From Mesoflavibacter sp. (GTDB taxonomy: Bacteria > Pseudomonadota > Alphaproteobacteria > UBA8366 > Aestuariispiraceae): a DNA stretch of 64,000 bases. Below the pieces are notes generated by a model. The model made no database searches. It had not been told where the DNA came from and saw only the letters and a program-made list of their open reading frames with translations. The DNA is taken from the NCBI GenBank assembly GCA_017792345.1, contig CP051228.1, positions 62,001 through 126,000 on the forward strand, read 5' to 3'. This document shows positions 10,896 to 39,202 of this stretch, piece after piece (the stretch's first letter is position 1; every line of letters starts with the position of its first letter). The translations under genes and the position numbers were made by a program.

Positions 10896-10900
10896 ACCGT

Positions 10901-16290: not shown

Positions 16291-16388
16291 GCGAACCACG
16301 CACGCCCTTCGCGGATCGACCGCCGGGTTTCCATTTGGGCGAATACCGCTTTAGTCTGCTCCCGGACCAGCCGGACCGGGAGCCCGCC

Positions 16389-18146
16389 TTGACCGCCGCG
16401 ACACGTATCAGGATCGCCGAATCCGACACCCCTTTCCTGATCGGGGCGGCCATCGGATCGGGCAGTACCGGCCTGGCGGCGGCGCGCGGCGGGGCAGACT
16501 TCCTGCTGGCCATCAATGCCGGCCGGTTGCGCAGCATGGGCGCGCCGTCCATCGCCTGTATGCTGCCGATCTTCGACGCGACAAGCCTGACAGAGGCCTT
16601 CGCGCGCGACGAGTTGCTGCCGCAATGCGATATTCCGGTCTTGCTGGGCGTAGATGTCTGGGGCGGTGCGCTGGATCCCGCCCGGCGTGCCTCTGAAATC
16701 GCCGCGGCTGGCTTCGCCGGGGCGGTCAATTTCCCAAGCTGCATGCATTATCCCCGTCCCATGCAGCAGCTACTCAGCCGAACCGGACGCGGCATCGAAC
16801 GGGAAGTGGCGCAGCTGCGCGCGGTACAGGATGCCGGGCTGACCTCCATGTTCTATTGCGCCACCCGCACCCAGGCCCGTCTCGCGGCGGATGCCGGCAT
16901 CGACATGGTCTGCCTGAATCTGGGGTGGAATGTGGGCGGGGCGGTCGGCCACCGTCGCCGCGCGTCTATCGAGGAAGTCGCGACGGCCGTCCGGGAAATC
17001 GGGCGTCTGATCAAACGGATCAATCCCCGCATCCGATTTCTGTTGGAAGGCGGTCCCATCGCCACCGCGGAGGATCTGGGACAGCTACTGCGCCTGGCCC
17101 CCATCGACGGTTATGTCGGCGGATCGACATTTGAAAGGATGCCGCTCGAGGCCTCCGTCGCGGATCAGATCGACCGGTTCCGGCATGCCGGCAGGCGGGT
17201 CGAAACCCTGAATGACGAAAGCGCCGGACTGCTGGCCTGGGGGCGGCGTTTCGGTCTGACCGGCCGCGCCAAGGCACAGCTAGCCTATCTGGAACGTCTG
17301 CGCCTGCTATCATCGGTATCGGCACCGGTACTGATCCATATCGGCCAGGGTCAGGACCCGATGCCCACGCTGCGCGCCTTGGCCTCCCGGACGGCCGGGA
17401 CGCCGGTCCTGTTTCAGATCGATCTGGCCGGAGAGGACTTTCCCGCCCGCGCTAGGGCAATGATGTTCGGTCATGCCGATCCGGCGGCCCGCCGCCGTCC
17501 TGCATTGGGCGATCCGGAAATCGACCTTCTGATCATTCACGCGCCGGAACGGCTGCCGAACGGGGCCCAACGTCGACTGGCCCGGGCGCTTTCGGACGGC
17601 GTTTTCCGCGCGACGGGCCAAAGACGGCCCAACTCGGTCGCGCCCCGCGTCGCCCTGGTGCGTGACGGGGCCCACGCCGACAGTCGCGATTCCGAAGCGC
17701 TGGACGGTCTGGACCCGGCCCTCAGCACCCTCTTTGCCGGCACCGTTCTGCGTCCGCCCCCCTTGGCGGCCCGGATTGACGATCTGATGGGACTGATCGA
17801 GGGGCTGTCCGAAGACCGGTTGGGGCGGCCACTGCACCGCGAAGCCTTCTCCGCAGAGGCGATGCAGGCCTTGGAGGCCCATCCCTGGCCCGGCAACGAA
17901 GCGGAACTCCAATCGGTTCTAGGCAAACTCCGCCATCCCGGAAGCGGTCAGCCGATTCAACGCGCCGAGCTTGCGCCGTTGCTGCGCGGAAACGCCGACC
18001 GACCGACCACCGGTCGCAGCGAGAAGGACCGGATCGTCGACGCGCTGTGGCGACATGGATTCAGTCGCGGCAAGACCGCCGAAGCCCTCGGGATTTCACG
18101 CAAGACGCTCTACAACAAAATCCGAAAATTCGGACTGGCCGACTAG
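16389..18146 (+). CDS. Transcriptional regulator: PEP_hydrolase-type TIM barrel + degenerate sigma-54 AAA+ domain + Fis HTH
   Basis: This 585-residue protein has three parts. Residues 1 to about 270 are a TIM barrel of the Tm-1 C-half/'phosphoenolpyruvate hydrolase' family (IGAAIGSGSTGLAAARGGADFLLAINAGR, GAVNFPS, LLEGGPIATAEDL). From about 310 to 520 it keeps the skeleton of an NtrC AAA+ domain (MMFGH near 357, LPNGAQRRLARALSDGVF, HPWPGNEAELQSVL near 497). Walker A and the GAFTGA loop are lost, so ATP-driven activation of sigma-54 is unlikely. The last 45 residues are a Fis-type helix-turn-helix (GKTAEALGISRKTLYNKIRKFG). The TTG at 16389 has GGGAG 6 bases upstream; TTG 16335 is an alternative. 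It probably senses a ligand handled by the paralogous enzyme at 26.5 kb. Confidence 0.82.
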   Translation: MTAATRIRIAESDTPFLIGAAIGSGSTGLAAARGGADFLLAINAGRLRSMGAPSIACMLPIFDATSLTEAFARDELLPQCDIPVLLGVDVWGGALDPARRASEIAAAGFAGAVNFPSCMHYPRPMQQLLSRTGRGIEREVAQLRAVQDAGLTSMFYCATRTQARLAADAGIDMVCLNLGWNVGGAVGHRRRASIEEVATAVREIGRLIKRINPRIRFLLEGGPIATAEDLGQLLRLAPIDGYVGGSTFERMPLEASVADQIDRFRHAGRRVETLNDESAGLLAWGRRFGLTGRAKAQLAYLERLRLLSSVSAPVLIHIGQGQDPMPTLRALASRTAGTPVLFQIDLAGEDFPARARAMMFGHADPAARRRPALGDPEIDLLIIHAPERLPNGAQRRLARALSDGVFRATGQRRPNSVAPRVALVRDGAHADSRDSEALDGLDPALSTLFAGTVLRPPPLAARIDDLMGLIEGLSEDRLGRPLHREAFSAEAMQALEAHPWPGNEAELQSVLGKLRHPGSGQPIQRAELAPLLRGNADRPTTGRSEKDRIVDALWRHGFSRGKTAEALGISRKTLYNKIRKFGLAD

Positions 18147-18832
18147 GCACCAGAGTTGGCGGCGCGAGGCCGGACAAGAAGCCCGTCCACGCCTTCGGGC
18201 CAGAGACCGGGATGCGACGCCTCCGTTTCGTCGCCGAGCCCCAGTATCGGTCCATGCCATGCCGTTTCGGACAGGGCGGCCCGGATATCCTGAATCGCCG
18301 CGCCGCGCTGACGTGACGACGGAAAGCCGACGGCGAAGTCGGACACACGCGGCAGAACGATCAGGCATTCCGCCCCCATCTCCGCGACACGGCACGCCCC
18401 GGCGGCGTCGGTCGCGACCGCCGCGATCCGAAGCCCCGCCGAACGCAAGGCATCCAATCGCTTCAACTCGCCACCGAGATCCAGACCGACATCTTCCAAT
18501 TGCTGAGCGAATTCCGGCTCCTGTTGCGATACGCTGGGCAGGTTCGCCACCCAATCGATCCCGGCAGCGCGGCAAGCCGCCACCAGGGGTCCGATACGCA
18601 GAAACGGATTGGCCAGAAACAGACCCAGCGCCACACCGGGCTCCGTCAATCGCCCCACCACCTCCGCCAAAGCAAGTTCCGCGGCTTGAGAATTGCGGTT
18701 GGGTAGCAACAGACCAACCTCCGCCGGCAAACCGTCGGCGATCAGCATCGGTACCGGCGTCGCCAATGCCCGGAAAACACCCGGAAAGGCAGCGGCATCC
18801 CGCCATGTCACCGTCCAAATGAGGTGGGGCAA
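18143..18832 (-). CDS. Shortened TIM-barrel paralogue (PEP_hydrolase/Tm-1 C-half family)
   Basis: This 229-residue protein is a divergent relative of the TIM barrels encoded at 16.4 and 26.5 kb. AEVGLLLPNRNSQA aligns with the ADFLLAINAGR strand, AGIDWVANLPSV with the [10 protein letters not shown] strand, and LRSAGLRIAAVATDAAGACRVAEMGAECLIV with the AGLTSMFYCATRTQARLAADAGIDMV segment. The glycine-rich first strand (GxGSGSTG) is absent and the protein is about 45 residues short, so catalysis is doubtful. A ligand-binding or regulatory role is an inference. It begins at TTG 18832 with only a weak GAAGAAG upstream, follows gntR on the same strand by 58 bases, and overlaps the convergent regulator gene by 4 bases. 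Confidence 0.65.
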   Translation of the reverse strand: MPHLIWTVTWRDAAAFPGVFRALATPVPMLIADGLPAEVGLLLPNRNSQAAELALAEVVGRLTEPGVALGLFLANPFLRIGPLVAACRAAGIDWVANLPSVSQQEPEFAQQLEDVGLDLGGELKRLDALRSAGLRIAAVATDAAGACRVAEMGAECLIVLPRVSDFAVGFPSSRQRGAAIQDIRAALSETAWHGPILGLGDETEASHPGLWPEGVDGLLVRPRAANSGA

Positions 18833-18890
18833 ACTTCTTCTCTACACCAATTAATACCCAATATTACCCATATCTGTATGTTCTTGGCCA

Positions 18891-19574
18891 TTACCCTTCC
18901 AGGAGGGCGCGCCGAACTTCTTCCAGATGGAGCATCATTGCCTCGCGGGCGGCCTTCGGGGAACGGCGGCGAACCGCGTCAATGATGGCCGCGTGCTGCG
19001 CGACATAGCGGGCCTTCAACTCGCTGGAATAGGCGTTCCGTTTCGCGGCCAGCCAATCGGCGTTGTCCCGCATCGACCGCAACATCTCGTCGATTCGTTG
19101 GACAAGCTGGTTATGGGTCATCGCAAAGATCAGTTGATGGATCTCGGCGTCATAGCGTTCGAACTCCTCCATGACGCTGGTATCTTCGGACGCCGCCTGG
19201 GCCTTCATCAGCAATTCGATATCGGCGTCGGTCGCGTTCGCGGCGGCTGCGGCCGCGGCGGCGGGCTCAATCATCATCCGTGCCTCGATCAAGTCGCGCG
19301 GACTGATGTCCGCCGGGACGACCCCCAGGGCGGCGGCCAGGGCGGCATTCTCGCCGGATGGCGTGTTGGTCACGAACGTGCCACGCCCAACCTGTCGGGT
19401 GATATGACCATCGTTTTCCAGCGAATCCATCGCCCGGCGCACGGTGTTCCGGGCGACACCGAACCTTTCCGCCAAATCCCGTTCCGTCGGGAACCGGCCA
19501 TCCGGACCGAAGGCACCGGATTCGATGTCCCGGCGCAGAAGTTCGCTGATCCTTGTCGAAACCGTATTGCGCAC
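18891..19574 (-). CDS. GntR-family regulator, FadR/FCD subgroup
   Basis: This 227-residue repressor has an N-terminal GntR winged helix (FPTERDLAERFGVARNTVRRAMDSLENDGHITRQVGRGTFV, about 27-70). An FCD effector domain (about 90-215) follows, with the usual ligand or metal-site residues scattered through RDLIEARMMIEP, DAEIHQLIF and QHAAIIDAV. FCD regulators bind small organic acids or fatty-acyl ligands. It is divergent from the Liv/Tm-1 operon. The spacer carries six copies of a TTGGWWC-like motif that are its probable operators, so it likely controls itself and the operon. Confidence 0.9.
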   Translation of the reverse strand: MRNTVSTRISELLRRDIESGAFGPDGRFPTERDLAERFGVARNTVRRAMDSLENDGHITRQVGRGTFVTNTPSGENAALAAALGVVPADISPRDLIEARMMIEPAAAAAAAANATDADIELLMKAQAASEDTSVMEEFERYDAEIHQLIFAMTHNQLVQRIDEMLRSMRDNADWLAAKRNAYSSELKARYVAQHAAIIDAVRRRSPKAAREAMMLHLEEVRRALLEG

Positions 19575-20068
19575 GCGCTTCCCCTTAACCGCTCTTACCT
19601 TGGCAGAATAGGCTCAATTGGATCAAAAACACAAGATGTTGGTTCCTACTGGTACAAATCAATTGACAAAGGATCTATTGGTACTTCACAATCACATCAA
19701 TTGGTTCATTAATTGGATCAAAAAAGGCTGTTTCGGTACAGAAAACAGCGCGGAACATCGGTTTCCATGCCGTTGAACCGGAATAAAACAGGGAGTTGAA
19801 GCGCGTGTTCTCCTTAGCGTTCCCGGTTTTCCTGAGCCGTTCGGGCAATCGCATGGATGTGTGCGAGTCCGATGAATCAAAATTATTGCCCCTTTCATTA
19901 CCCAATTTTTCCCAGAAGTTTTGGAATCTTCGTTGCGGCGATTTCAAGAGACGATCAAGCTTGTCCTCAACCGCCGGATACAGGCGGCGCGATGAAACAT
20001 CGCAATGGAGAGCCGCCAGGGTCGCAAGCGCGCCAACCGGGCCGGCCAAACGGGAGGAAACGGATCGC
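19575..20068. other. Long AT-rich regulatory spacer before the Liv/Tm-1 operon
   Basis: Nearly 500 bases separate gntR from the operon. The first 170 are markedly AT-rich compared with the surroundings and contain the motif cluster described separately. The second half returns to normal composition. A 101-codon frame at 19796-20101 is open but lacks a ribosome site and convincing codon use, so it is not called as a gene. Promoters for both directions must lie here, but no single -35/-10 pair stands out. Confidence 0.55.
19616..19720. promoter_or_regulatory. Cluster of six TTGGWWC-like repeats, probable GntR operator array
   Basis: The core occurs at 19618 (TTGGATC), 19639 (TTGGTTC), 19649 (CTGGTAC), 19678 (TTGGTAC), 19701 (TTGGTTC) and 19713 (TTGGATC), all in the same orientation. 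Two copies are identical over AATTGGATCAAAAA. Neighbouring copies are 21, 10, 29, 23 and 12 bases apart, mostly near whole helical turns. They lie between gntR and the operon it faces. Confidence 0.55.
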
Positions 20069-20101
20069 ATGTCGCACCGAACCGGTGAGCGACTGCCATG
20101 A
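20069..20101 (+). CDS. Possible 10-residue leader peptide overlapping livH
   Basis: An ATG at 20069 sits ten bases after a strong GGGAGGA site (20052-20058). It opens a frame of ten codons (MSHRTGERLP) whose TGA (20099-20101) overlaps the livH ATG at 20098. livH has no comparably good ribosome site of its own, so translation of the short frame probably feeds livH by coupling. The peptide has no recognisable attenuation codons. It could also be an accident of an alternative livH start. Confidence 0.4.
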   Translation: MSHRTGERLP

Positions 20102-21108
20102 GGCAGTTCGTCGAACGTCATACCTTCTGGGCGATCGTGATCTTCCTGATCGCGGCGGCCTTCCTGTGGATGATCTTCGCGGTCTGGCCGGATTGGCTGG
20201 AAGACGCGATCGGCCGCAAGAAGACCTTCGTGAACACCTTTTTGAACGGCATTACGCTGGGCGGTCTGTATTTTCTGGTGGCCAGCGGGTTCACCCTGGT
20301 CTTCGGCCTGATGCGTAACGTGAATCTCGCCCATGGGTCGATGTACCTGCTGGGCGCCTATATCGGCTATGAGGTCGCGGAGGCTAGCGGATCCTGGTTC
20401 CTGGGTCTGGCCGTCGCCTTCCTGGCCATCGCCGCCAGCGGCATCCTGTTGCAGGTTCTGATTTTCCGTCGAATGGAAGGCGACGACCTGCGCCAGACGC
20501 TTGTGACCATCGGCATCTCCATCATTGCCGCCGATCTGATGTTGGCGGTCTGGACCGGGACGACCTATCAGTTTGCGCCGCCGGAATGGCTGTTCGGTGC
20601 GGCCACCCTGCCCGTCATCTCGACCCTTAAATCCTCCGGTGATGCCGTCTTCATCAAGTATCCGGTCTACCGGCTTGCGGTGCTGGCGGTTGCGGTGGCG
20701 GTCGGGATCGCGCTCTGGCTGTTCCTCAACCGCACCCGGATCGGCATGATGATCCGGGCCGGCGTGAACGACCGCGACATGCTGGCCGCGTCCGGCGTGA
20801 ACGTGCAGTTGGTCTTCGCCCTGGTCTTCGCCATCGGCGCCGGGCTGGCCGGGTTTGCCGGCGTCATCGGGGGGACGGCGCTGTCCATCGCACCGGGTGA
20901 GGATATCCGCTATCTGCTGGCCTCGCTCATCGTCGTCATTGTCGGCGGGCTGGGTTCCGTTACCGGCGCAGCCATCGGTGCGCTGCTGATCGGCCTCGCG
21001 GAACAGTTCGGCCTGGCCTACTTCCCAACATACGGCGTCGTCCTGACCTTCCTGATCATGGTCGTCACCCTGGCGGTGCGTCCGCAGGGCATCATGGGAG
21101 GGCGCTGA
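20098..21108 (+). CDS. livH: Branched-chain amino acid-type ABC transporter permease (LivH)
   Basis: This 336-residue inner-membrane permease has eight or more hydrophobic segments and the LivH signature NGITLGGLYFLVASGFTLVFGLMRNVNLAHGSMYLLGAY near 45-85. The late block GLGSVTGAAIGALLIGLAEQFG is also present. It forms the channel with LivM. An N-terminal helix (about 9-31) precedes the core, an extension often seen in HAAT family members that transport compounds other than amino acids. It is the first main gene of a twelve-gene operon, coupled to a tiny upstream frame and followed by livM after 4 bases. Confidence 0.92.
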   Translation: MRQFVERHTFWAIVIFLIAAAFLWMIFAVWPDWLEDAIGRKKTFVNTFLNGITLGGLYFLVASGFTLVFGLMRNVNLAHGSMYLLGAYIGYEVAEASGSWFLGLAVAFLAIAASGILLQVLIFRRMEGDDLRQTLVTIGISIIAADLMLAVWTGTTYQFAPPEWLFGAATLPVISTLKSSGDAVFIKYPVYRLAVLAVAVAVGIALWLFLNRTRIGMMIRAGVNDRDMLAASGVNVQLVFALVFAIGAGLAGFAGVIGGTALSIAPGEDIRYLLASLIVVIVGGLGSVTGAAIGALLIGLAEQFGLAYFPTYGVVLTFLIMVVTLAVRPQGIMGGR

Positions 21109-21112
21109 GGCC

Positions 21113-22177
21113 ATGGACACGCGGCGTCTGTTTTCCGGCGAATTCTCCTTCAAGGACATCCATCCGGCCAAGCTGGCTCTGGCTGTCTTCCTGATCGCCT
21201 ATCCGACTTTCGCGACCGACTTCTTCACCTATCAGATCGGGGCCTATTCCCTGATCCTGGGCACCATCGCCCTGTCGCTGGTCATGCTGGCCGGCTATGG
21301 CGGCATGGTCAGTCTGGCGCAGCTGACGGTGGCCGGATTTGCCGGCTATATGATGGCGATCTTCGGTCACAACAGCGTCGAGGTGATGGGGCTGGGCTGG
21401 CCCTGGTGGATCTGTGCGCCCTTCGCGATTTTCACGGCGGCGGTCTTCAGCGCCTTTATCGGCGCCATCTCGGTTCGCACCGAAGGCATCTATACGATTA
21501 TGATCACGCTGGCGATCGCCGTCGCCTTCTTCTACTTCGTGCGTCAGAACTATGTCCTGTTCAACGGCTTCACCGGTTATGCCGGGGTCGAGCCCCCGAC
21601 CTTTCTGGGCGTCTACTGGCGCGATCCGATTCCGTTCTACTACCTGACCCTCGCCATCGCAGCCGCCTTCTACGGCGCGATCGTCTACGCCTCGCGGGCG
21701 CCTTTCGGGCTCAGCCTACAGGCGATCCGGGACAATCCGCGCCGCATGCGGGCCCTGGGATACGATGTCACACTGCATCGCATCACCGCGTACTTCTTCT
21801 CCGGCATCATCGCCGGGACGGCGGGCGTGCTGATGGTCTGGTTCAACGGCCGGGTGTCCCCCGGTTCCGTCGGGGTGGACGTTGCCATCGACATTCTGGT
21901 GATCGCGGTGGTCGGCGGTCTGCGCCATCCGATCGGCCCATTCCTCGGCGCAATTGCCTTTGTCCTGCTGGAAAACTTCGCCATCGACCTGATCGACCGC
22001 GAACGCTTCAACACCGTGATCGGGTTGGCGTTCCTGCTGGTCGTCCTGTTCTCGCCCGATGGCCTCTTAGGAATATGGAACCGCCTGCGTGAGCGGGTTC
22101 GGTTCTCACGAAATGCGCAGCGATCGGCTGAACGCATGGCAAGAGACGACCGGCAATCCGCCGGATCTCTCGAATAA
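21113..22177 (+). CDS. livM: Branched-chain amino acid-type ABC transporter permease (LivM)
   Basis: This 354-residue permease is partner of LivH. It carries LSLVMLAGYGGMVSLAQLTVAGFAGYMMAIFG near 60-90 and QAIRDNPRRMRALGYDVTLHRITAYFFSGIIAGTAGVLM near 200-240, the cytoplasmic loop and helix that contact the ATPases. VVGGLRHPIGPFLGAIAF is the LivM C-terminal block. It is spaced 4 bases from livH and 26 from the binding-protein gene, consistent with one transcript. The transported compound is not known; Liv-type permeases also import urea, amides, aromatic acids and other metabolites. Confidence 0.92.
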   Translation: MDTRRLFSGEFSFKDIHPAKLALAVFLIAYPTFATDFFTYQIGAYSLILGTIALSLVMLAGYGGMVSLAQLTVAGFAGYMMAIFGHNSVEVMGLGWPWWICAPFAIFTAAVFSAFIGAISVRTEGIYTIMITLAIAVAFFYFVRQNYVLFNGFTGYAGVEPPTFLGVYWRDPIPFYYLTLAIAAAFYGAIVYASRAPFGLSLQAIRDNPRRMRALGYDVTLHRITAYFFSGIIAGTAGVLMVWFNGRVSPGSVGVDVAIDILVIAVVGGLRHPIGPFLGAIAFVLLENFAIDLIDRERFNTVIGLAFLLVVLFSPDGLLGIWNRLRERVRFSRNAQRSAERMARDDRQSAGSLE

Positions 22178-22203
22178 ACCTAGAAATAGGGAGGAAGGAA
22201 GAG

Positions 22204-23451
22204 ATGTTCGGTATAGGAAAGAAGGCTCTAATTGCCGCGGCGGCCCTGTCCATCGCCGGTCCGGCAATGGCGCAGGACACGATCAAGATGGGGGCGCTGG
22301 CGACGCTGGAAGGGGCCTTCACGGTTCTCGGCGAAGACGGCATGCGCGGTGTCAAACTGGCGCTCGAGGAATTCGGCTATGAAGCCGGCGGCAAGAAGAT
22401 CGAACTGATTACCGGTTCGTCGGACGCCTCGCCGGACAGCGCGGTTCGTGCCGCCCGTAAGCTGGTGGAACAGGACGGTGTGCCGATCCTGGTCGGTCCG
22501 CTGTCGGGGTCTGAAGGTCTGGCCGTAAAAGACTATGCCAAGACGCAGCCGGATGTGACCTTCCTGAACGGTTCGTCGGCGGCGCAGGATACGACGCTGC
22601 GCAACCCGTCGGACAACTTCTTCCGCTTCGGCACCGAAGGTGCTCAGTGGATGGCCGGTCTCGGCGAGTATGTCTATGAGGAAAAGGGCTACCGCAAGGT
22701 TGCGGTCCTGGCGGAAGACTATTCCTTCCCCTACACGCAGGTCTTCGGCTTTCTGGAGCCGTTCTGCCGTCTGGGCGGCGAAGCCCCGGTCGACGCGCGC
22801 TTCTGGGTTCCGATCGGCAACAAGGACTATTCCTCGGTCATCGCCGCGCTGCCGGACGATGTCGACGCCATCTATGTCGCCCTGGGCGGTGCGGATGCCG
22901 TCAACTTCCTGACGCAGTACGAGCAGGCCGGCGGTGAATTGCCCCTGATCGGCGGTTCGATCACGGTCGACCAGTCGGTGCTCGGCTCCAAGGGCCGTAC
23001 CCGGGACTTCATCATCGGCACGCCGTCGGCGGGTCCGATTTCCGACACCTGGGACGATCCGCGTTGGAGCGCCTTCGTTGATGCCTACAAGGCCCAGTTC
23101 CCGGATGGCTTCCCGTCACCGTCGCTGTTCGCGCATGCCTATTACATCAACACCAAAGCGGCTCTGCTGGCGCTTGATGAAGTCGGCGGCGATCTGTCGG
23201 ACGGCGGCAAGAAGTACCGCGAGGCCCTGTCCAACCTGTCCTTCGAAACGCCGACGGGCATGGTGGCGCTGGACGAACGCCGCAACGCGGTTGCCGATAT
23301 CTTCCTGACCGAAGTCATCGAAGGTCCGGAAGGCAACCTCGTCAACAAGACCATCAAGGTCATTCCGCAGGTCAGCCAGACCCTGGGTCTCTCCTACGAG
23401 AAGTTCCTGGAATACGGTCAGGTCGGCCGCGACAACCCGAGCTGCGAATAA
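22204..23451 (+). CDS. Liv-type ABC transporter periplasmic binding protein
   Basis: This 415-residue protein has a cleavable Sec signal (hydrophobic 8-20, AMA-QD cleavage near 23). A type I periplasmic-binding fold follows: IKMGALATLEGAFTVLGEDGMRGVKLALEE opens domain 1, and ARKLVEQDGVPILVGPLSGSEGLAVKDYA covers the ligand cleft. It captures the substrate for LivHMGF. A strong AGGGAGGAAGG ribosome site suggests high expression, as expected for a binding protein. The family blocks resemble those annotated for aromatic or other non-amino-acid ligands as much as leucine-binding proteins, so the ligand is left open. Confidence 0.9.
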   Translation: MFGIGKKALIAAAALSIAGPAMAQDTIKMGALATLEGAFTVLGEDGMRGVKLALEEFGYEAGGKKIELITGSSDASPDSAVRAARKLVEQDGVPILVGPLSGSEGLAVKDYAKTQPDVTFLNGSSAAQDTTLRNPSDNFFRFGTEGAQWMAGLGEYVYEEKGYRKVAVLAEDYSFPYTQVFGFLEPFCRLGGEAPVDARFWVPIGNKDYSSVIAALPDDVDAIYVALGGADAVNFLTQYEQAGGELPLIGGSITVDQSVLGSKGRTRDFIIGTPSAGPISDTWDDPRWSAFVDAYKAQFPDGFPSPSLFAHAYYINTKAALLALDEVGGDLSDGGKKYREALSNLSFETPTGMVALDERRNAVADIFLTEVIEGPEGNLVNKTIKVIPQVSQTLGLSYEKFLEYGQVGRDNPSCE

Positions 23452-23474
23452 GCACGTAGTCGGGGACGGATACC

Positions 23475-26520: not shown

Positions 26521-27340
26521 ACGAAAAGACCTTCTGGCGAAGTTCCACGACATGAAGGCGCGGGGCGAACCCATCGTCGGCGGCGGTGCGGGCACCGGCC
26601 TGTCGGCGAAATGCGAGGAAGCCGGCGGCATCGACCTGATCGTCATCTACAATTCCGGCCGTTACCGCATGGCGGGACGCGGGTCGCTGTCCGGCCTGAT
26701 GGCCTATGGCAATGCCAATGAGGTTGTCATGGAAATGGCTCATGAGGTCCTGCCGGTCACCAAGAAGACCCCGGTTCTGGCAGGCGTCAACGGAACGGAC
26801 CCGTTCTGCATTTTCGACCACTATCTGGATCAGGTGAAGGCGATCGGATTCTCCGGCGTCCAGAACTTCCCGACAGTCGGCCTGATCGACGGCACCTTCC
26901 GGGCGAATCTGGAAGAGACCGGCATGTCCTATGGCCAGGAGGTCGACATGATCCGGATGGCGCATGACAAGGACATGTTCACCACGCCCTATGTCTTCAA
27001 CGAGGACGACGCCAAAGCGATGGCCGCGGCCGGGGCGGATATCGTTGTCTGCCATATGGGCCTGACCACCGGCGGTTCCATCGGCGCGGAAACGGCACTG
27101 AAACTGGAAGACTGCCCGGCCCTGGTGAATTCCTGGGCCGAGGCCGCCCTGTCCGTGAACCCCGACGTGCTGGTCCTGGTTCATGGCGGCCCGGTCGCGA
27201 TGCCGGCGGATGCGGAATACGTTCTGAAAAACACCGATAATTGCCACGGTTTCTACGGCGCCTCTTCCATGGAGCGGCTGCCGACGGAAAAGGCACTGAC
27301 CGAACAAACAAAAGCGTTCAAAGCGCTGCGAACGGGCTGA
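26507..27340 (+). CDS. TIM-barrel protein of the PEP_hydrolase/Tm-1 C-half family
   Basis: This 277-residue soluble TIM barrel corresponds to the C-terminal half of plant Tm-1 and to bacterial proteins labelled 'phosphoenolpyruvate hydrolase family'. Visible blocks are [39 protein letters not shown] at the first strands, [43 protein letters not shown], and [17 protein letters not shown] at the phosphate-binding end. The glycine-rich strand is intact, unlike in the two paralogues near 16-18 kb, so this one is likely the working enzyme. It overlaps the Tm-1-like gene by 14 bases. UPF0261 and this family co-occur or are fused elsewhere, which supports a functional pair. The reaction is unknown. 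Confidence 0.88.
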
Positions 27341-27357
27341 TAGGGAGGATTGAGACC

Positions 27358-29427
27358 ATGACGACCGGCCTGATCGGATCCATCATTCTCTGGCTGATCA
27401 TCGCGATCATCGCGATTGTGGTGATCGTTTATCTGTTGAACTGGCTCTACCACCGTTCGACGAAGGAAGTCGCCTTTGTGCGCACCGGCTTCGGCGGGGA
27501 GACCGTGGTGATAAATGGCGGGGCATTGGTCCTGCCCATCATTCACGAGGTGACGCCGGTCAACCTGAACGTCGTGCGCATTCCCGTCGCCCGAAAGGAA
27601 GGCAGCGCGGTCATCACCCGCGATCGGATGCGCGTCGATATCGAGGCGGAATTCTTCGTCCGCGTCATCCAGAAGCCCGACGCCGTCGCGGCCGCCGCCT
27701 CCACCCTGGGCCGGCGCACGATGGATCAGGAAAGCCTGGCGGACCTGCTGAACGGGAAGTTCGTCGGTGCCCTGCGTTCCGTCGCCGCGGAGATGTCCCT
27801 GGACGAAATGCATGAGAAGCGCGGTGACTTCGTCTCCATCGTCGAAGCCCGTGCCGCCGAGGCCCTGGCCCGAAACGGGTTGGAACTGGAATCCGTCGCG
27901 ATCACCGACCTGGACCAGACGGATCTGGAATACTTCAACCCGGCCAACCGCTTCGATGCCGAAGGTCTGACCCAGTTGATCGAGACTATCGAGTCGCGCC
28001 GCAAGCTGCGCAACGACATCGAGCAATCGTCGATGCTGGCCATCCGCAGCCGCAATCTGGAGGCGGAAAAGGAAACCCTGAAGCTTGAGCAGGAAAGCGA
28101 AAGCTCCCGCCTGGATCAGGAACGGGCGCTGGAATCCCTGCGCGCCGCCCAACGGATGGAGGTCATCCGCGACCGCGTCGCCCGTGAGGCGGAGGCCGAG
28201 AAGTCCCGGATCGCCAGCGAGCGCGAAACCCGGGAGTTCGACATCGAACGCCGCCGCGCGCTGGAAGAAATCGAAATCCGCGCCCAGCAGCAGATCGAAT
28301 CCGCCCGCATCGCCCAGGAAGAGGCGCTGGAACAGGCGCGCATCGACCGCGAGAAGCAGATCCGCACCCTGCAGATCAAACAGCGCCACGAGGTGGAAAC
28401 GGCGGAAATCGCATCCTCCGAAGATGTCGAACGGGCCAAGATCGTATCCGAGCGGCAATTGCGCGAAGCCCGTATCGCGGCCGAGGAGGAAACCGAATCC
28501 CGCGAAATCGCCCGCGGTCAGCAATTGGAGACGGCCCGTATCTCCGCAACCAAGACCGTGGAATCGGCCCGCATCGCGCAGGAGCAGATCCTCGACAAGG
28601 CCCGGATCGAACGCGACCGTCTGTTGCGTGCCCAGCAGATCGCCCAGCGCCAGTCGCTGGAGGAAACCGAGATTTCCGCAAATGAGGAAATCGAACGGGC
28701 CCGCATCGCATCCAATCGCGGCCTGGAGGAGGCCCGAATCCTTCAGGATCGGGACCTGAAGCGCCTGGAAATCGAACGCGCCATGGCCCTGGAACTGGCC
28801 GATATCGAGCGCGAGATCGCGCGGCTGGGCAAACAGTCGGAAGAGGCCGGCGTCCGAACCAGCACCGAAGCCGCCCGCGCCGAGGCCGTCGCGGCAACGG
28901 AGAAGGTCACGACAATCCGCGAACGCGAGATCGCCGAACGGGTCGCCGCCGTCGACAAGCTGCTGGCCCAGAAGAATGCCGACGCGGCCGTCATCGCGGC
29001 CGAGGCCGAGAAGATTTCCGCAGCCGTTGCCGCGGAAGCCGAGCGCCTGCGCAACGAGGCCGAGAACGTGTTGAGCGACGACGCCCGTGCCGCCCGGATC
29101 CGGTCGAAGATGATCGACCGACTGGAAGGCATCGTGCGCGAGAGCGTCAAGCCGATGGAAAAGATCGAAGGCATCAAGATCCTGCATGTCGACGGTCTGA
29201 CCGGTCATGGCGGAGACGGCGGCCACCGCTCCCCCACCGACGAAGTGATCGAGAGCGCGCTGCGCTATCGCGCCCAGGCCCCGCTGATCGACGAAATGAT
29301 GAAGGAAATCGGCGTCGAGAATGCGGGTGTGGCCAAGATGGGCGACATCTTCCGGTCGGCCAAAGATGCGCAATCCCTGGCAAAGGAAGCCCAGGCTGCC
29401 AAGAAAAAGAAGGATGACGAGGCATGA
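27358..29427 (+). CDS. Flotillin-like SPFH-domain membrane protein with hendecad coiled coil
   Basis: This 689-residue protein resembles YqiK-type flotillins. An N-terminal membrane helix (about 5-28) precedes an SPFH/band-7 domain (about 35-215; FVRTGFGGETVVINGGALVLPIIHE, DLDQTDLEYFNPANRFDAEG). Then come 23 consecutive 11-residue repeats (about 239-491; units such as ARIAQEEALEQ and ARIERDRLLRA). A second Ala/Glu-rich coil and the flotillin C-terminus (LIDEMMKEIGV) follow. SPFH proteins assemble into membrane cages or lipid-domain scaffolds. Its place in a transport/catabolic operon suggests it organises the fused transporter or enzymes. The ATG at 27358 has AGGGAGGA upstream. It overlaps the next gene by 4 bases. 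Confidence 0.9.
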   Translation: MTTGLIGSIILWLIIAIIAIVVIVYLLNWLYHRSTKEVAFVRTGFGGETVVINGGALVLPIIHEVTPVNLNVVRIPVARKEGSAVITRDRMRVDIEAEFFVRVIQKPDAVAAAASTLGRRTMDQESLADLLNGKFVGALRSVAAEMSLDEMHEKRGDFVSIVEARAAEALARNGLELESVAITDLDQTDLEYFNPANRFDAEGLTQLIETIESRRKLRNDIEQSSMLAIRSRNLEAEKETLKLEQESESSRLDQERALESLRAAQRMEVIRDRVAREAEAEKSRIASERETREFDIERRRALEEIEIRAQQQIESARIAQEEALEQARIDREKQIRTLQIKQRHEVETAEIASSEDVERAKIVSERQLREARIAAEEETESREIARGQQLETARISATKTVESARIAQEQILDKARIERDRLLRAQQIAQRQSLEETEISANEEIERARIASNRGLEEARILQDRDLKRLEIERAMALELADIEREIARLGKQSEEAGVRTSTEAARAEAVAATEKVTTIREREIAERVAAVDKLLAQKNADAAVIAAEAEKISAAVAAEAERLRNEAENVLSDDARAARIRSKMIDRLEGIVRESVKPMEKIEGIKILHVDGLTGHGGDGGHRSPTDEVIESALRYRAQAPLIDEMMKEIGVENAGVAKMGDIFRSAKDAQSLAKEAQAAKKKKDDEA

Positions 29428-29861
29428 CCGAGGTCTATGCGTCCTCCGTCATTGGGGCTCCGGCAGATCAGGTCTGGGCGGCGATCCGGAACTTCAACGG
29501 TCTGCCCTCCTGGCATCCGGCCATTGCGGAGAGCCGCATCGAAGGCGGCGCCCCGGCGGACCAGGTCGGCTGCGTCCGGGCGTTCCGGCTGAAAGACGGC
29601 GGGTTTATCCGGGAGAAGCTTCTGGCCCTGTCCGATTACGACTTCGCTTGCACCTATTCGATCCTGGAAAGCCCGATGGGCGTCGAAAACTATATCGCGA
29701 CCCTGAAACTGTCGCCGATCACCGATGGCGGCCGGACCTTCGCGGAATGGTCGGCGGAGTTCGACTGCGCCCCTGAACGCGCGGACGAGCTTACGGACCT
29801 GATCGGCAACAATGTGTTCCAGGGCGGCTTCGACGCGCTGAAAGGCCGTTTCGGAGGCTGA
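29424..29861 (+). CDS. SRPBCC-family (polyketide cyclase/Bet v 1-like) protein
   Basis: This 145-residue single-domain protein has the helix-grip fold that binds hydrophobic ligands. It begins with VYASSVIGAPADQVWAAIRNFNGLPSWHPAI, the classical SRPBCC opening with the WHP motif, and ends in a long C-terminal helix (ADELTDLIGNNVFQGGFDALKGRF). It overlaps the SPFH gene by ATGA and is followed 4 bases later by a second SRPBCC domain fused to an oxidoreductase, so two such domains are made together. It may bind the pathway intermediate or act as a cyclase; there is no direct evidence. Confidence 0.88.
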   Translation: MTEVYASSVIGAPADQVWAAIRNFNGLPSWHPAIAESRIEGGAPADQVGCVRAFRLKDGGFIREKLLALSDYDFACTYSILESPMGVENYIATLKLSPITDGGRTFAEWSAEFDCAPERADELTDLIGNNVFQGGFDALKGRFGG

Positions 29862-29865
29862 TGAC

Positions 29866-31341
29866 ATGGTCGCCGTCCGTCGCAGCACCGTAATCGACGC
29901 GCCGATATCGGCGGTCTGGGACGTGCTGCGCGATTTCAATGGTCACGAAAGCTGGCACCCGGCGGTCCGCCGCAGCGATCTGGAAGACGGGCGCCGCACC
30001 GATCAGATCGGCGCGGTCCGCAATTTCAGCCTGGAATCCGGCGACCGCATCCGCGAGCGGCTGCTGTCCCTGTCCGACAAGGACAAGCGATTGCGCTACT
30101 GCATCGTCGATGCCGATGTACCGCTGCAGAACTATGTCGCCGAAATCGCCCTGAAACCGGTCACAGACGGCAACCGCACCTTCTGGTCCTGGACGTCTAC
30201 TTTCGGCACGCCCAAGGGCCGCGAGAACGAATTGGCGAAGCTGGTCGCCGAAGGCGTCTATGAGGCCGGGTTCGATGCCGTCCGGCAACGGGTCGAGAGG
30301 GTCGGACGCCCCGCCGCGCCCGCCATCCGGAACGGCGCGTCCCTACCCGGCACGGCCATGGTCATCGACCGGCACGGCGGACCGGAAGAACTGCATGCCC
30401 GGCCCGTCGACGCCCTCCCGCCCGGCCCCGGTCAGGTCCGCCTGCGCCAGACGGCCATCGGTGTGAACTTCATCGACGTCTATTGCCGCAGCGGCTATTT
30501 CGACCTGCTGAATCCGCCTGGCGCGCCGGGTATGGAGGCAGCCGGGGTGGTGGAAAGTATCGGACCCGATGTCCGGCATTTGAAGCCGGGCCAGCGTGTC
30601 GGCTATGCCTGCCCGCCGGTCGGGGCCTATGCCAGCGTACGGACGATGGATGCCCACCTGGTTTTCCCGCTGCCCGATTTCCTGGATGACCGGCAGGCGG
30701 CTGCGATCCTGCTGAAGGGGATCAGCGCCGAATTCCTGCTCCACCGCGTCCATCCGGTTCGCGAGGGCGAGACGGTGCTGGTCTATGCCCCGGCGGGCGG
30801 CGTCGGGCAATTGCTCTGCCGCTGGGCCAACCGCTTGGGGGCGACCGTAATCGGCGCGACCAGCAGCGAAGACAAGGCGCGGATCGCCCGCGCAGCCGGG
30901 GCACACCATGTAATCCTGCCGGGCCGCGACAGTCTGGAGAAGCAGGTGCGCGACCTGACGCAGGGGCGCGGCGCGGATGTCATCTATGACGCTGTCGGGC
31001 GCGACACCTTCGATCATTCCGTCGCCGCCCTGGCGAATTGCGGGCATCTGGTCAGTTTCGGTCAGGCATCCGGCGATATCGGCCCGCGCGATATCGGCGC
31101 ACTGGCAAGCCGGTCCGTCACCTTGTCCCGCCCCAATTACGGCCACTACACCGACACGCCGCAGAAGCTGTCCGCGATCACGGGCCGCCTGTTCGACGCC
31201 CTGCGCAACGGCATTCTGCGCGTCGAAATCGGCCGCACCCTGCCCCTCAGCGCTGCCGCAACGGCCCACCGGGCTCTCGAAGACCGGGAAACCACCGGCG
31301 CCACAATTCTGATCCCCGACGATCTGTACGAGAAAGGATAA
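29866..31341 (+). CDS. SRPBCC domain fused to quinone oxidoreductase (zeta-crystallin-like MDR)
   Basis: This 491-residue protein has an N-terminal SRPBCC domain (about 1-145; STVIDAPISAVWDVLRDFNGHESWHPAV) closely resembling the preceding gene product. A linker leads to an NADPH:quinone reductase of the MDR superfamily (about 165-491). That part shows GVNFIDVYCRSGYF, GMEAAGVVESIGP, the nucleotide-binding VLVYAPAGGVGQLLCRWANRLGATVIG, and GRGADVIYDAVG. Zinc ligands of alcohol dehydrogenases are absent, as expected for this branch. The fusion suggests that a ligand bound by the SRPBCC domain is reduced by the neighbour domain. The GTG-like internal starts at about 30350 lack a ribosome site, so the fusion appears real. 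Confidence 0.9.
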   Translation: MVAVRRSTVIDAPISAVWDVLRDFNGHESWHPAVRRSDLEDGRRTDQIGAVRNFSLESGDRIRERLLSLSDKDKRLRYCIVDADVPLQNYVAEIALKPVTDGNRTFWSWTSTFGTPKGRENELAKLVAEGVYEAGFDAVRQRVERVGRPAAPAIRNGASLPGTAMVIDRHGGPEELHARPVDALPPGPGQVRLRQTAIGVNFIDVYCRSGYFDLLNPPGAPGMEAAGVVESIGPDVRHLKPGQRVGYACPPVGAYASVRTMDAHLVFPLPDFLDDRQAAAILLKGISAEFLLHRVHPVREGETVLVYAPAGGVGQLLCRWANRLGATVIGATSSEDKARIARAAGAHHVILPGRDSLEKQVRDLTQGRGADVIYDAVGRDTFDHSVAALANCGHLVSFGQASGDIGPRDIGALASRSVTLSRPNYGHYTDTPQKLSAITGRLFDALRNGILRVEIGRTLPLSAAATAHRALEDRETTGATILIPDDLYEKG

Positions 31342-31346
31342 GACGT

Positions 31347-32213
31347 ATGAAACTGGCCACCTTCGATTGGAACGGGGAACGCCATGTCGGCCGCGTATCG
31401 GACGATGGCAGCACGGTGACACGGTTGAACCTTCCCGCAGGCGCCGCCGACAGGGACGGCGTAGCGGCGCTGATCGGATCGGACCTGCCCGCCGAAGCGG
31501 AACAGCTGTCCGTCTCGGACATCAAACTGGTCGCGCCGGTGCCGCGCCCCCATCGCAACATCTTCTGCGTCGGGAAGAATTATTTCGAACACGCCCATGA
31601 ATTCGCCTCTTCCGGCTTTGACAGCAGCGCCGCCAAGGGCGCGGTGCCGGAAGCGCCCATTGTCTTCTCCAAACTGCCGGAAAGCGTGATCCCGCACGAA
31701 GCCGCGGTAAAGGTCGATGCCGGTGTCACCACGGCGGTCGATTACGAGGCCGAACTGGCGGTCATCATCGGGAAGGGCGGCCGCAACATTTCCAAGGAAG
31801 ACGCCCTGTCTCATGTCTGGGGCTACACCATCGTCAACGACGTGACCGCCCGCGATCTGCAGGGCATTCACAGCCAATGGCTGATCGGCAAGTCCCAAGA
31901 CACCTTCTGCCCAATGGGCCCGGTCGCAGTCACCGCCGACGAGATCGACCTGGAAGACACGGCGGTCCGGTGCTGGGTCAATGGCGAGCTTCGCCAGGAT
32001 TCGAACACGAAGCTGCTGATCTTCGATGTGCCGACAATCATTGCGGCGATTTCGAACGGGATCACCTTGATGCCGGGCGATGTGATCGCCACCGGCACGC
32101 CCGCCGGGGTCGGGATCGGCTTCAAGCCCCCGAAATATCTGACGCCCGGCGACACGGTGCGTGTCGAGATCGCGGGTATCGGTATCCTGGAGAACCCGGT
32201 GGAGGCCTATTGA
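31347..32213 (+). CDS. Fumarylacetoacetate hydrolase-family protein
   Basis: This 288-residue metal-dependent hydrolase/decarboxylase-type enzyme has NIFCVGKNYFEHAHEF (about 72-87), VDYEAELAVIIGKGGRNIS with the metal-binding Glu residues, and GYTIVNDVTARDLQ. The catalytic-domain blocks MPGDVIATGTPAGVGIGFKPPKYLTPGDTVRVEIAGIG close the fold. Members hydrolyse C-C bonds of acylpyruvates or decarboxylate and isomerise ring-cleavage products. This is the last-step chemistry one expects in an aromatic or heterocyclic degradation route. The start is the ATG with AAAGGA upstream, 5 bases after the previous stop. Confidence 0.92.
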   Translation: MKLATFDWNGERHVGRVSDDGSTVTRLNLPAGAADRDGVAALIGSDLPAEAEQLSVSDIKLVAPVPRPHRNIFCVGKNYFEHAHEFASSGFDSSAAKGAVPEAPIVFSKLPESVIPHEAAVKVDAGVTTAVDYEAELAVIIGKGGRNISKEDALSHVWGYTIVNDVTARDLQGIHSQWLIGKSQDTFCPMGPVAVTADEIDLEDTAVRCWVNGELRQDSNTKLLIFDVPTIIAAISNGITLMPGDVIATGTPAGVGIGFKPPKYLTPGDTVRVEIAGIGILENPVEAY

Positions 32214-32215
32214 TC

Positions 32216-32992
32216 ATGGCCGAACTCCGCTTGGGCAGCATGATTGCGGAACGCAGCGGCGAGGGCCCGGCCGTGGTAATGATCCACGGTCTGGGCGGCA
32301 CGTCGAACACGTTCCAGCCGCAAATGGCGGCCCTCAACGGATTTGACGTCTTGCGCCCGGACCTGCCCGGCGCGGGCCGGTCGGCACTGCGCCCCGGTAA
32401 GCCGGGCCTGAAGGCGATGGCCCAGGACGTTAAGGACATGATGCGTGCGGCCGGAATCTCCCGGGCCCATCTGGTCGGGCATTCCATGGGCACGTTGATC
32501 TGTCAGTATCTCGCGGCCGACCGAGACTTTCAGGCCCTCAGCCTGACCCTATTCGGCGCCATTCTGGAACCGCCGGAAGCTGCGCGGGCGGGATTGAAGG
32601 ACCGGGCCGCAGCGGCGCGGGAAAAGGGCATGACCGGCATTGCCGACGCCGTTTCCCAGGCAAGCGTCTCCGCCGCATCCCGCAAGGCGAACCCGGTTGT
32701 ACCGGCCTTCGTGCGCGAAAGCCTAATGCGTCAGGACCCCGCCGGTTACGCCGCCCATTGCGAGGCGTTGAGCGGCGCCCAGGCGGCGAACCACGCCGTG
32801 ATCGCCTGCCCGACTCTGATGATCGCGGGCAGCGACGACCCCGTTGCGCCCGTTGCGATGGCGCAGGAACTGAAACGCCGCATCACCGGCGCAACGGTCG
32901 AGACCCTTTCCGGGATCGGTCACTGGATGACAATGGAAGACCCGCAACGGTCGGCGGACCTGTTGCGGCAACATTTGGACGCGGCCGCATAA
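32216..32992 (+). CDS. Alpha/beta-hydrolase
   Basis: This 258-residue alpha/beta-fold hydrolase has an oxyanion region MIHGLGG (23-29), nucleophile S90 in GHSMG, acid D207 or D208 in AGSDDP, and H236 in GIGHWM. The overall arrangement resembles 3-oxoadipate enol-lactonases and other meta-cleavage or ester hydrolases. The ATG lies two bases after the FAA-hydrolase stop, with coupling likely. In this operon it could open a lactone or cleave a C-C bond upstream of the FAA-hydrolase. The substrate cannot be assigned from sequence. Confidence 0.9.
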   Translation: MAELRLGSMIAERSGEGPAVVMIHGLGGTSNTFQPQMAALNGFDVLRPDLPGAGRSALRPGKPGLKAMAQDVKDMMRAAGISRAHLVGHSMGTLICQYLAADRDFQALSLTLFGAILEPPEAARAGLKDRAAAAREKGMTGIADAVSQASVSAASRKANPVVPAFVRESLMRQDPAGYAAHCEALSGAQAANHAVIACPTLMIAGSDDPVAPVAMAQELKRRITGATVETLSGIGHWMTMEDPQRSADLLRQHLDAAA

Positions 32993-33022
32993 AAGAACGG
33001 CCGCCACGAAGGGAGAGATATC

Positions 33023-34366
33023 ATGGCTGACAATGGCTTCGGCGGTTGGGGCGGATCCGGCGGTGGTGCGCCACGCGCGCCCGAAATCGTCTTCAGCAAT
33101 GTCCGAATTCTGGATGGGACGGGCGAGAAACTCTATTCGGGCGAAGTCACCGTTTCCGGCAACCGGATCAAATCGATCTCTCGCTCCGGCTCCGGCGGTT
33201 TCGGCTGGAACAGTCAGAGCAACGGCGGCTCGCAACGCATCGACGGGCGCGGCATGACCCTGATGCCCGGCCTGATCGACGCGCATTTGCACCTCAGCTG
33301 GAACAATGCGCCCGGGATCAATCCCATCCAGATGATGCCGGTCGAAGAGCATATGCTGAACTGCGTCTATATGGCGAAGCTGCTGCTGGATGCCGGGTTC
33401 ACCGCCGGCTATGGCGCGGCAGCCGCGAAGCCGCGCCTGGACGTGGTGATCCGCGACGCCATCCGGTCGGGCAAGGTGCCGGGTCCGCGGTACACCGCTG
33501 CCGGGCCGGAACTGACCTCGGTCGGCGGGCTGGGCGATGCGTCCCTGCCGCATATTCCGCATGAAGGCCTCAATCTCGGGATTGTCGTCTCCGGTGCGGA
33601 AGACATGCGCCGCAAGGTGCGCGAGCTGATGAAATGGGGCGTCGACACGATCAAGATCAACCTGTCCGGTGAGGAAATCACCGGCATGGGCGCCGAGGAA
33701 AACCAGTTCACGGACGAGGAAGTCCGGGTCGCCTGTGAAGAAGCCAAGGGGCGTCACCGCCGTTTGGCAGCCCATGCGCGGTCCAAGGAATCGATCCAAC
33801 GCTGCGTGAAGTTCGGCATCGACATCATCTACCATGCGTCCTTCACCGACGAGCAGACGCTGGACATGCTGGAGGCCAACAAGGACAAGCATTTCGTGGC
33901 GCCCGGCCTCGCCTGGCTGATCAACACGGCGCGCAACGCGGCCGAATATGGCATCAAGCCCGGCACACCGATGACCGAAGCTTACGAACGGGAATTGGAA
34001 CACGCGGTCGAATCCATGCGCCAGATGCACAAGCGCGGCATCCGCGTCCTGATCGGCGGCGATTACGGCTTTGCCTGGACCCCGCATGGGACGAACGCGA
34101 AGGACCTGCAGTATTTCGTCGAAATGGTCGGCATGTCGCCGATGGAAGCGATCCAGGCGGGCACCAAACTGGGCGGCGAGATCATGGGCATGGGCCACGA
34201 ACTGGGCATGATCAAGGAAGGATATCTGGCCGACATGCTGTTGGTCGACGGCGATCCCAGCACGGATGTCCGCGTCCTGCAGGACCACAAGCGTATTGTG
34301 GCCATCATGCAGGACGGCGCCTTTCACAAGGCGCCGTCTGCACAAACCGTCGGAATGCGTCTGTAG
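33023..34366 (+). CDS. Metal-dependent amidohydrolase (imidazolonepropionase/prolidase-like)
   Basis: This 447-residue cytoplasmic TIM-barrel hydrolase has the metal motif HLH at 88-90 (LIDAHLHLSW), followed by AAHAR, IIYHASF and the late GGDYGF aspartate. The gapped N- and C-terminal beta-sandwich is present (IVFSNVRILDGTGE; GYLADMLLVDGDPSTDVRVL). Two glycine/serine-rich insertions, at 4-16 (NGFGGWGGSGGGA) and 53-70, are unusual for the family and predicted flexible. It hydrolyses a cyclic amide, lactam or ester; the exact substrate is unknown. It is the last gene of the Liv/Tm-1 operon and is convergent with the RidA gene 3 bases away. Confidence 0.9.
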   Translation: MADNGFGGWGGSGGGAPRAPEIVFSNVRILDGTGEKLYSGEVTVSGNRIKSISRSGSGGFGWNSQSNGGSQRIDGRGMTLMPGLIDAHLHLSWNNAPGINPIQMMPVEEHMLNCVYMAKLLLDAGFTAGYGAAAAKPRLDVVIRDAIRSGKVPGPRYTAAGPELTSVGGLGDASLPHIPHEGLNLGIVVSGAEDMRRKVRELMKWGVDTIKINLSGEEITGMGAEENQFTDEEVRVACEEAKGRHRRLAAHARSKESIQRCVKFGIDIIYHASFTDEQTLDMLEANKDKHFVAPGLAWLINTARNAAEYGIKPGTPMTEAYERELEHAVESMRQMHKRGIRVLIGGDYGFAWTPHGTNAKDLQYFVEMVGMSPMEAIQAGTKLGGEIMGMGHELGMIKEGYLADMLLVDGDPSTDVRVLQDHKRIVAIMQDGAFHKAPSAQTVGMRL

Positions 34367-36866: not shown

Positions 36867-36898
36867 GGCGATACGAACTTTCGCTTAAGTGACTGGTT

Positions 36899-39189: not shown

Positions 39190-39202
39190 GTAATGCCTCG
39201 AC

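Follow-up and report, generated by a model that had tools for sequence, protein, structure and literature searches.

Introduction

Tm-1 is a virus-resistance gene of plants, and proteins of the UPF0261 family correspond to the N-terminal half of its product. The defining trait of the phosphotransferase system (PTS) is that it couples uptake to phosphorylation, and to our knowledge no ATP-binding cassette (ABC) importer is known in which a metabolic kinase is fused to the ATPase. One study reports that the two halves of Tm-1, UPF0261 and a TIM barrel, are joined in a single plant protein and have co-evolved in prokaryotes, with 491 of 504 bacterial genomes holding both and with correlated distances (r 0.77) (PMC5028733). 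MarK is reported, in work of 2025, to be a single-component kinase that starts the catabolism of acetovanillone in Novosphingobium aromaticivorans. Here, a window of 64,000 nucleotides from Mesoflavibacter sp. (contig CP051228.1, positions 62,001 to 126,000, forward strand; all positions below count from the first letter of the window) is found to encode a branched-chain-type (Liv) importer in which a UPF0261 domain is joined to the LivF ATPase; the next gene encodes a TIM barrel of family PF09370. The locus is read as an ABC importer that carries its own small-molecule kinase, in which import would be coupled to phosphorylation and the TIM barrel would act on the phosphorylated product, a reading to which a probability of roughly one half is assigned.

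The system is found in soil, root-nodule and marine bacteria. Land plants, fungi and bacteria all have conserved versions of the Tm-1 halves, and this locus, where they adjoin a binding protein open to ligand screening, offers a direct route to their function. It also makes the role of a bacterial flotillin testable with a defined set of partners.

An Importer ATPase Fused to a UPF0261 Domain

The fusion gene lies in an operon of twelve genes on the plus strand (20098-34366), with intergenic gaps of -38 to +30 nt. A preliminary description of this DNA had listed the same twelve genes with overlaps or very short gaps; all are in place, and the Pfam matches agree with it. The genes, with the match values that identify them, are as follows.

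20098-21108, plus strand: LivH-type permease (Pfam BPD_transp_2, 5.1e-34)
21113-22177, plus strand: LivM-type permease (Pfam BPD_transp_2, 1.1e-34)
22204-23451, plus strand: periplasmic binding protein (Pfam Peripla_BP_6, 3.1e-53)
23475-24269, plus strand: LivG-type ATPase (Pfam ABC_tran, 1.5e-29; BCA_ABC_TP_C)
24259-26520, plus strand: LivF-UPF0261 fusion, 753 aa (Pfam ABC_tran, UPF0261 N and UPF0261_C)
25132-25146, plus strand, within the fusion gene: PTRWS motif of the linker, with [TN]RW conserved
26483-27340, plus strand: PF09370 TIM barrel (PEP_hydrolase), enzyme form (4.6e-131, 436 bits; PDB 2p10, 1e-121)
27358-29427, plus strand: SPFH/flotillin protein (Pfam Band_7, 1.2e-19; Flot, 1.1e-34)
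29424-29861, plus strand: SRPBCC1, identified outside the Pfam scan from its reading frame, an alignment with 16 homologues and its relatives in a genome scan
29866-31341, plus strand: SRPBCC2 joined in one protein to an NADPH:quinone-oxidoreductase-like domain (Polyketide_cyc2, 1.7e-25; ADH_N; ADH_zinc_N, 7.9e-23)
31341-32213, plus strand: fumarylacetoacetate-hydrolase-family protein, accessory and swappable (FAA_hydrolase, 5.8e-73)
32207-32992, plus strand: PcaD-like alpha/beta hydrolase, accessory and swappable (Abhydrolase_1, 1.8e-27; NCBIfam PcaDC/PcaD below cut-off)
33023-34366, plus strand: amidohydrolase of the carboxypeptidase/prolidase/ochratoxinase group, accessory and swappable (Amidohydro_1, 1.2e-29; PDB 3mtw, 3be7, 4c5y)

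Within the fusion protein, ABC_tran covers residues 30-169, UPF0261 N residues 343-511 and UPF0261_C residues 521-737, corresponding to an ABC part at about 24259-24990, a linker at about 24991-25284 and the UPF0261 part at about 25285-26469. The ABC part has the usual motifs of a nucleotide-binding domain, and membership of the UPF0261 family is clear, at 205 bits for PF06792 and 296 bits for PF23189 against a cut-off of 27 each. In the whole genome there is one match to UPF0261 and there are three to PF09370, all of which fall in this region.

Where livF and UPF0261 are adjacent, they form a single open frame in 89 of 90 cases, the sole exception in this count being L073. In a sample of 289 alphaproteobacterial genomes, the fusion is present in 12 of the 33 that bear UPF0261. 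Full-length relatives of the fusion were found in 9 of 59 related genomes searched, including 9 of the 14 of the same family, and the remaining related genomes match it through ABC ATPases only. In a midpoint-rooted tree of 95 UPF0261 sequences, retained from 143 after the removal of near-copies and fragments, all 66 fused sequences lie on one side of a branch (99/92), and a single change accounts for the fused state in all of the 200 bootstrap trees, from a bootstrap that was not fully settled (0.988). Two of the four rows labelled adjacent in this tree (L086 and L109) owe the label to the nearby ATPase of another transporter. The fusion arose once.

The linker between the aligned parts ranges from 78 to 160 residues among 68 loci and is variable in sequence. 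Its sole strongly conserved spot is [TN]RW, found in all 89 fused linkers (TRW in 85, NRW in 4), and this PTRW/NRW motif looks like a docking peptide. A search of the open-access literature found no description of a UPF0261-ABC fusion or of the proposed importer-kinase. The public annotation of the fusion in L104 and L105 reads "ABC transporter permease", which hides it from text searches.

UPF0261 as a Predicted Kinase

The fused UPF0261 domain is 41% identical to tomato Tm-1 (phmmer 3.6e-91) and 31% identical to PDB entry 9mpy (phmmer 3.4e-53, profile 2.2e-71), and its predicted fold matches 3wrx and 9mpy with Foldseek values of 2.4e-38 and 5.4e-31, respectively. The title of 9mpy names Saro_1862, a UPF0261 protein of N. 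aromaticivorans, with bound acetovanillone. In public annotation the NCBI family is called Tm-1-like ATP-binding. Because of the ligand in 9mpy, the MarK report and this family name, a small-molecule kinase is the most likely activity of UPF0261. Residues that are invariant in free-standing UPF0261 proteins, which have no transporter attached, are retained in the fused domain. The preliminary description had held that the bacterial function of both Tm-1 halves is not established; this stands for the TIM half and has probably been overtaken for UPF0261 by the 2025 work on MarK.

The PF09370 TIM Barrel and Its Pairing With UPF0261

In phosphate-binding TIM barrels, the ends of strands 7 and 8 form the phosphate site. 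The motifs GGP, after beta 7, and GAS/GxS, after beta 8, are invariant in the enzyme form of the PF09370 barrel, and the window enzyme has all invariant columns of both alignments (18 rows and 35 rows). The structure alignments comprised 34 of 56 TIM sequences and 34 of 69 UPF0261 sequences, plus the window protein. Over its whole length, the window enzyme is 63-64% identical to PDB 2p10 (Mll9387). Assignment of its chemistry from fold neighbours was tried and was not decisive: after six chains of 2p10, a mixed list follows at about 1e-8, with aldolases, PdxS, triose-phosphate isomerase, methylisocitrate lyase and ketopantoate hydroxymethyltransferase (KPHMT).

In the alphaproteobacterial sample, 26 of 27 genomes with PF09370 also encode UPF0261, the exception being G057, whose PF09370 match is weak and under the cut-off, and 7 of the 33 genomes with UPF0261 lack PF09370. 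Taken together, these counts indicate that the TIM barrel depends on UPF0261 and that the reverse does not hold. The UPF0261-TIM pairs found on plasmids adjoin importers of sugar type (L107, L108, L113), BMP type (L109) and Liv type (L104, L105), and three further pairs (L110, L111, L112) have no importer close by in the stretches shown. In several cases (L106-L109), an SRPBCC gene follows the pair directly. Free pairs beside several types of ABC importer are as expected, because a kinase would follow uptake; these contexts suit a post-uptake kinase with an enzyme for its phosphorylated product, and they suit a single enzyme of two subunits as well.

The latter is a somewhat unlikely alternative, in which UPF0261 and the TIM barrel would jointly carry out a reaction beyond simple phosphorylation, such as ATP-dependent C-C cleavage or carboxyl transfer, and the fusion would just deliver this enzyme to the importer. 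The single plant protein and the prokaryotic co-evolution of the halves, as reported in PMC5028733, speak for it, as do the 26 of 27 co-occurrences, the 38-nt overlap of the fusion and TIM genes in the window and the presence of methylisocitrate lyase and KPHMT among the TIM fold neighbours. In addition, the TIM model is of low confidence in its active-site loops, which would fit loops that a partner orders. However, PF09370 is absent from the 7 UPF0261 genomes noted above, the title of 9mpy names a bound aromatic and no TIM partner, and MarK is reported as a single-component kinase. The preliminary description had joined the two halves into one enzyme or carrier; that they belong together is borne out by their co-occurrence and by the reported co-evolution, but an independent kinase is the better reading of UPF0261 because of the 9mpy ligand, the MarK report and the genomes with UPF0261 and no PF09370.

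In Yoonia sp. SS1-5 (L104, about 10001-10900), matches to the TIM gene fall into two segments read in different frames, and the gene is missing from the annotation table, reflecting either a broken gene or a sequencing error. Contig 77 of an alphaproteobacterial genome, G507, has five matches to PF09370 and two to UPF0261, and may hold several neighbouring versions of the system.

Conservation of the Locus

When 84,980 species genomes were scanned with the SRPBCC1 alignment, at least 559 relatives were obtained, of which the best 80 of 559, leaning to close relatives, were used. Gene order was counted in the 60 of these 80 loci that are at least 20 kb in length, the 20 loci below 20 kb being left out. 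The core order livH-livM-livG-livF-UPF0261-TIM-SPFH-SRPBCC1-SRPBCC2 is kept in 59 of the 60 long loci, with the exception of L135, which is without liv genes. The TIM gene always follows UPF0261, and the flotillin gene and the SRPBCC pair stand in order, in 60 of 60 in both cases. The binding protein is within 27 of the long loci; the Bradyrhizobium-type loci drawn from whole genomes all have it upstream of livH (8 of 8), past the edge of the shorter loci. The relatives kept come from Rhodospirillales-type Alphaproteobacteria, Bradyrhizobium, Variovorax, Ramlibacter, Rhizobacter and gammaproteobacterial assemblies, and the core thus occurs across Alpha-, Beta- and Gammaproteobacteria. Since the core order recurs in this way and the fused sequences form one clade, the arrangement is not due to chance. 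Conservation of the neighbourhood, whose absence the preliminary description had named as a possible refutation of a conserved system, was therefore found.

What follows the core differs among the long loci. Genes for a molybdenum hydroxylase of the CO-dehydrogenase type lie downstream in 31 of 60. The quinone oxidoreductase, fumarylacetoacetate hydrolase, alpha/beta hydrolase and amidohydrolase are present as in the window in 14 of 60 and without the fumarylacetoacetate hydrolase in 6 of 60; a further 8 of 60 have the quinone oxidoreductase with the amidohydrolase upstream, and 1 of 60 has none of these accessories. In Bradyrhizobium (L169), the downstream genes encode a flavoprotein subunit, an iron-sulphur subunit and a molybdopterin subunit that is split, proteins like MoxR and CoxE, an Amidohydro_2 protein and a protein of the metallo-beta-lactamase fold. 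As the accessory genes vary in this manner, the finishing step of catabolism is interchangeable, and the core consists of import, UPF0261, the TIM barrel, SPFH and SRPBCC. The hydrolases that had been counted as part of the system are indeed present in the window and are replaced in other loci.

A second alternative, that UPF0261 is an ATP- and ligand-binding regulatory domain that gates the importer in response to internal substrate, is improbable. Other ABC ATPases bear C-terminal regulatory domains, and here a long linker tethers UPF0261 to the ATPase. Nevertheless, the fused domain has kept the invariant residues of its transporter-free relatives, and the TIM enzyme is the next gene in every long locus. 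Least probable is an ordinary catabolic operon of co-regulated genes with no protein assembly and a neutral fusion, for which the hydrolases, reductase and binding protein are standard parts and two adjacent pairs of livF and UPF0261 are unfused, but against which stand the near-constant fusion (89 of 90 adjacent cases), its conserved linker motif and the invariable order of flotillin and SRPBCC pair, which loose co-regulation would not predict.

The importer itself has the full Liv-type complement of two permeases, two ATPases and a periplasmic binding protein. The nearest solved relatives of the binding protein are assorted Liv-type proteins, with 4zpj first, and are not decisive for the substrate. 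Transport of urea or leucine was considered and rejected, the importer scoring far under the NCBIfam cut-offs for LivF, LivG and the urea proteins UrtDE. The SPFH protein has both the SPFH domain (Band_7) and the C-terminal flotillin domain (Flot) of a flotillin, together with an 11-residue coiled-coil repeat (periodicity 11, 22, 33, 44, 55). Its length differs among loci, with 975 aa in Bradyrhizobium (L169) and annotated lengths of 562 aa for L105 (Variovorax) and 1129 aa for L104 (Yoonia). A role in defence, against phage or otherwise, was set aside: PADLOC gave only generic ATPase matches for the fusion and no match for the TIM, SPFH, SRPBCC1 or SRPBCC2-quinone oxidoreductase proteins. After the operon, a block on the minus strand (34741-39264) encodes an FAD oxidoreductase, an acetylpolyamine-deacetylase-like protein, a BKACE protein and an aminotransferase. 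Three of these four genes adjoin a UPF0261-TIM pair in the unrelated genome of L081, with 60-70% identity.

Proposed Mechanism

In the preferred reading, that of an importer with a built-in kinase, the binding protein with LivHM, LivG and LivF would import a small organic compound, perhaps an aromatic one, as suggested at the level of the families. UPF0261, tethered to LivF by the linker of about 80-160 residues, would then phosphorylate the arriving compound with ATP and so trap it. The TIM barrel, made from the overlapping gene, would use its GGP and GAS motifs to bind the phosphate and, judging from fold and motifs, would most likely carry out a lyase- or aldolase-type reaction. The flotillin and SRPBCC proteins may retain at the membrane either the assembly or a ligand of poor solubility, and the interchangeable hydrolases, reductases or molybdenum hydroxylase would complete catabolism. 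Control may be exerted by a dead TIM barrel on a sigma-54-type scaffold, seen as stripped of its ATPase and sigma-54 contacts, which would sense the phosphorylated intermediate alongside a GntR repressor.

A more specific version is put forward tentatively, namely an ABC-type group translocation in which LivF bears a kinase of the Tm-1/MarK type that would act on the substrate at its exit from the channel and pass it to the phosphate-binding TIM enzyme, docked on the conserved linker motif, with a flotillin raft holding the parts and a dead enzyme copy sensing how much phosphorylated product is present. The computations establish the architecture, the conserved gene order, the single origin of the fusion and the loss of residues in the regulator; as regards group translocation, they show the covalent fusion and its conservation.

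Several observations weigh against the proposed importer-kinase. The window domain is just 31% identical to 9mpy and 41% to Tm-1, and the identity of Saro_1862 with MarK is our own inference. MarK is described as single-component, which gives the TIM barrel no role, and the sugar-importer contexts of the free pairs (L107, L108, L113) argue against a purely aromatic role. Beyond 2p10, the fold neighbours of the TIM barrel are generic, with a TM of about 0.5 and 746 matches at E <= 0.001. The fusion is not essential, since two genomes have livF and UPF0261 adjacent and unfused (L073/G043, with a gap of 51, and L198/G626, a second case found separately from the count of 90). Gene order is not absolute, either: L070 carries the three hydrolases upstream, and in G550 the TIM gene is about 4 kb upstream of the fusion. 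Finally, consensus scans find one sigma-70-like site against 3.5 expected, and terminator-like sites located within the operon; these scans neither favour a single transcript nor rule against it.

The TIM-Barrel Regulator and Neighboring Elements

Upstream of the operon lie three further genes and a cluster of repeats.

16335-18146, from a TTG start (or from the TTG at 16389 that the preliminary description uses), plus strand: TIM-barrel regulator, 603 aa (PF09370, 2.2e-56, residues 26-283; AAA_lid_14; HTH_8, 2.7e-11)
18143-18832, minus strand: partial PF09370 barrel (1.9e-10, profile positions 60-175 of 267)
18891-19574, minus strand: GntR/FCD regulator, divergent from the operon (Pfam GntR, 2.1e-19; FCD, 4.9e-20)
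19616-19724, no strand assigned: TTGGWTCA repeat cluster between the GntR gene and livH, a candidate operator

Two TIM-barrel paralogues and a GntR regulator had been described here, and all three are present, the second paralogue being a partial barrel only. It cannot form a whole barrel, and it is kept beside the TIM regulator in several other loci. The 603-aa paralogue, in a detail beyond the preliminary description, is itself built like a transcription factor, combining the PF09370 barrel with a degenerate sigma-54-type AAA domain and a Fis-type helix-turn-helix (HTH); PADLOC matches it as AAA/HTH of the RtcR_PspF2 type (2e-12).

Across 14 regulators, a set that omits a broken fragment in L083, the residues K43, E45, S58, R66, H191 and H234 are replaced in all 14, and all six are invariant in the enzyme alignments. 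All 14 keep GGP, the final serine, R60, R62 and N128, while D106 is kept in 5 of 14 and D136 in 4 of 14. This pattern suggests that the TIM domain of the regulator is a ligand sensor that is no longer catalytic, and the earlier proposal that the enzyme fold was reused in a regulator is upheld by the barrel, the AAA remnant and HTH, and the six lost residues. None of the 14 has a GAFTGA-like loop and one (L073) has a Walker A-like motif, neither being found in the window regulator, which probably cannot act as a sigma-54 activator and, given its HTH_8 match, may still bind DNA.

Within the repeat cluster, positions 19701-19720 hold the exact tandem TTGGTTCATTAATTGGATCA, which is unique in the genome; allowing 1 mismatch adds a single site elsewhere, and a control pattern had no site. 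The TTGGWTCA half-site is present in 6 of 8 upstream regions compared, but not in L071 and L074. Sites of the TTGGW type exceed shuffled sequences in 5 of 8 (the window, L064, L067, L068 and L069) and do not in L066, L071 and L074. L071 is without a GntR match, but L074 has a GntR match yet no site, so that either the GntR or the TIM regulator may bind the repeats.

Comparison With Known Systems

The importer resembles the Liv/HAAT importers of branched-chain amino acids in its two BPD_transp_2 permeases, its Peripla_BP_6 protein and its LivG- and LivF-like ATPases, and differs from them in the UPF0261 domain fused to LivF and in its NCBIfam scores, which for LivF, LivG and UrtDE fall well short of the cut-offs. 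The regulator shares the AAA lid and the Fis-type HTH with sigma-54 enhancer-binding proteins, with a weak match to the PspF and NtrC families, but is without Walker A and GAFTGA and has a PF09370 barrel as its sensor. Among solved structures, 2p10 has the same motifs as the window TIM enzyme; its title calls it a putative phosphonopyruvate hydrolase, and no report of its activity was found in the literature searched.

The aromatic dikinases HpeHI, AcvAB and PpsAB begin catabolism by phosphorylating an aromatic compound, and passages of PMC12167813 propose that phosphorylation by HpeHI keeps inside the cell, as in a trap, compounds that enter by diffusion. These enzymes are built from unrelated domains (ATP-grasp and swivel), and no link to an importer is mentioned in those passages. 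The solved Tm-1/UPF0261 members (PDB 3wrw, 3wrx and 3wry; 9mpy, probably MarK) are homologous to the fused domain over its full length and have the same fold, whereas in the window this domain forms the C-terminal half of the ATPase of an ABC importer.

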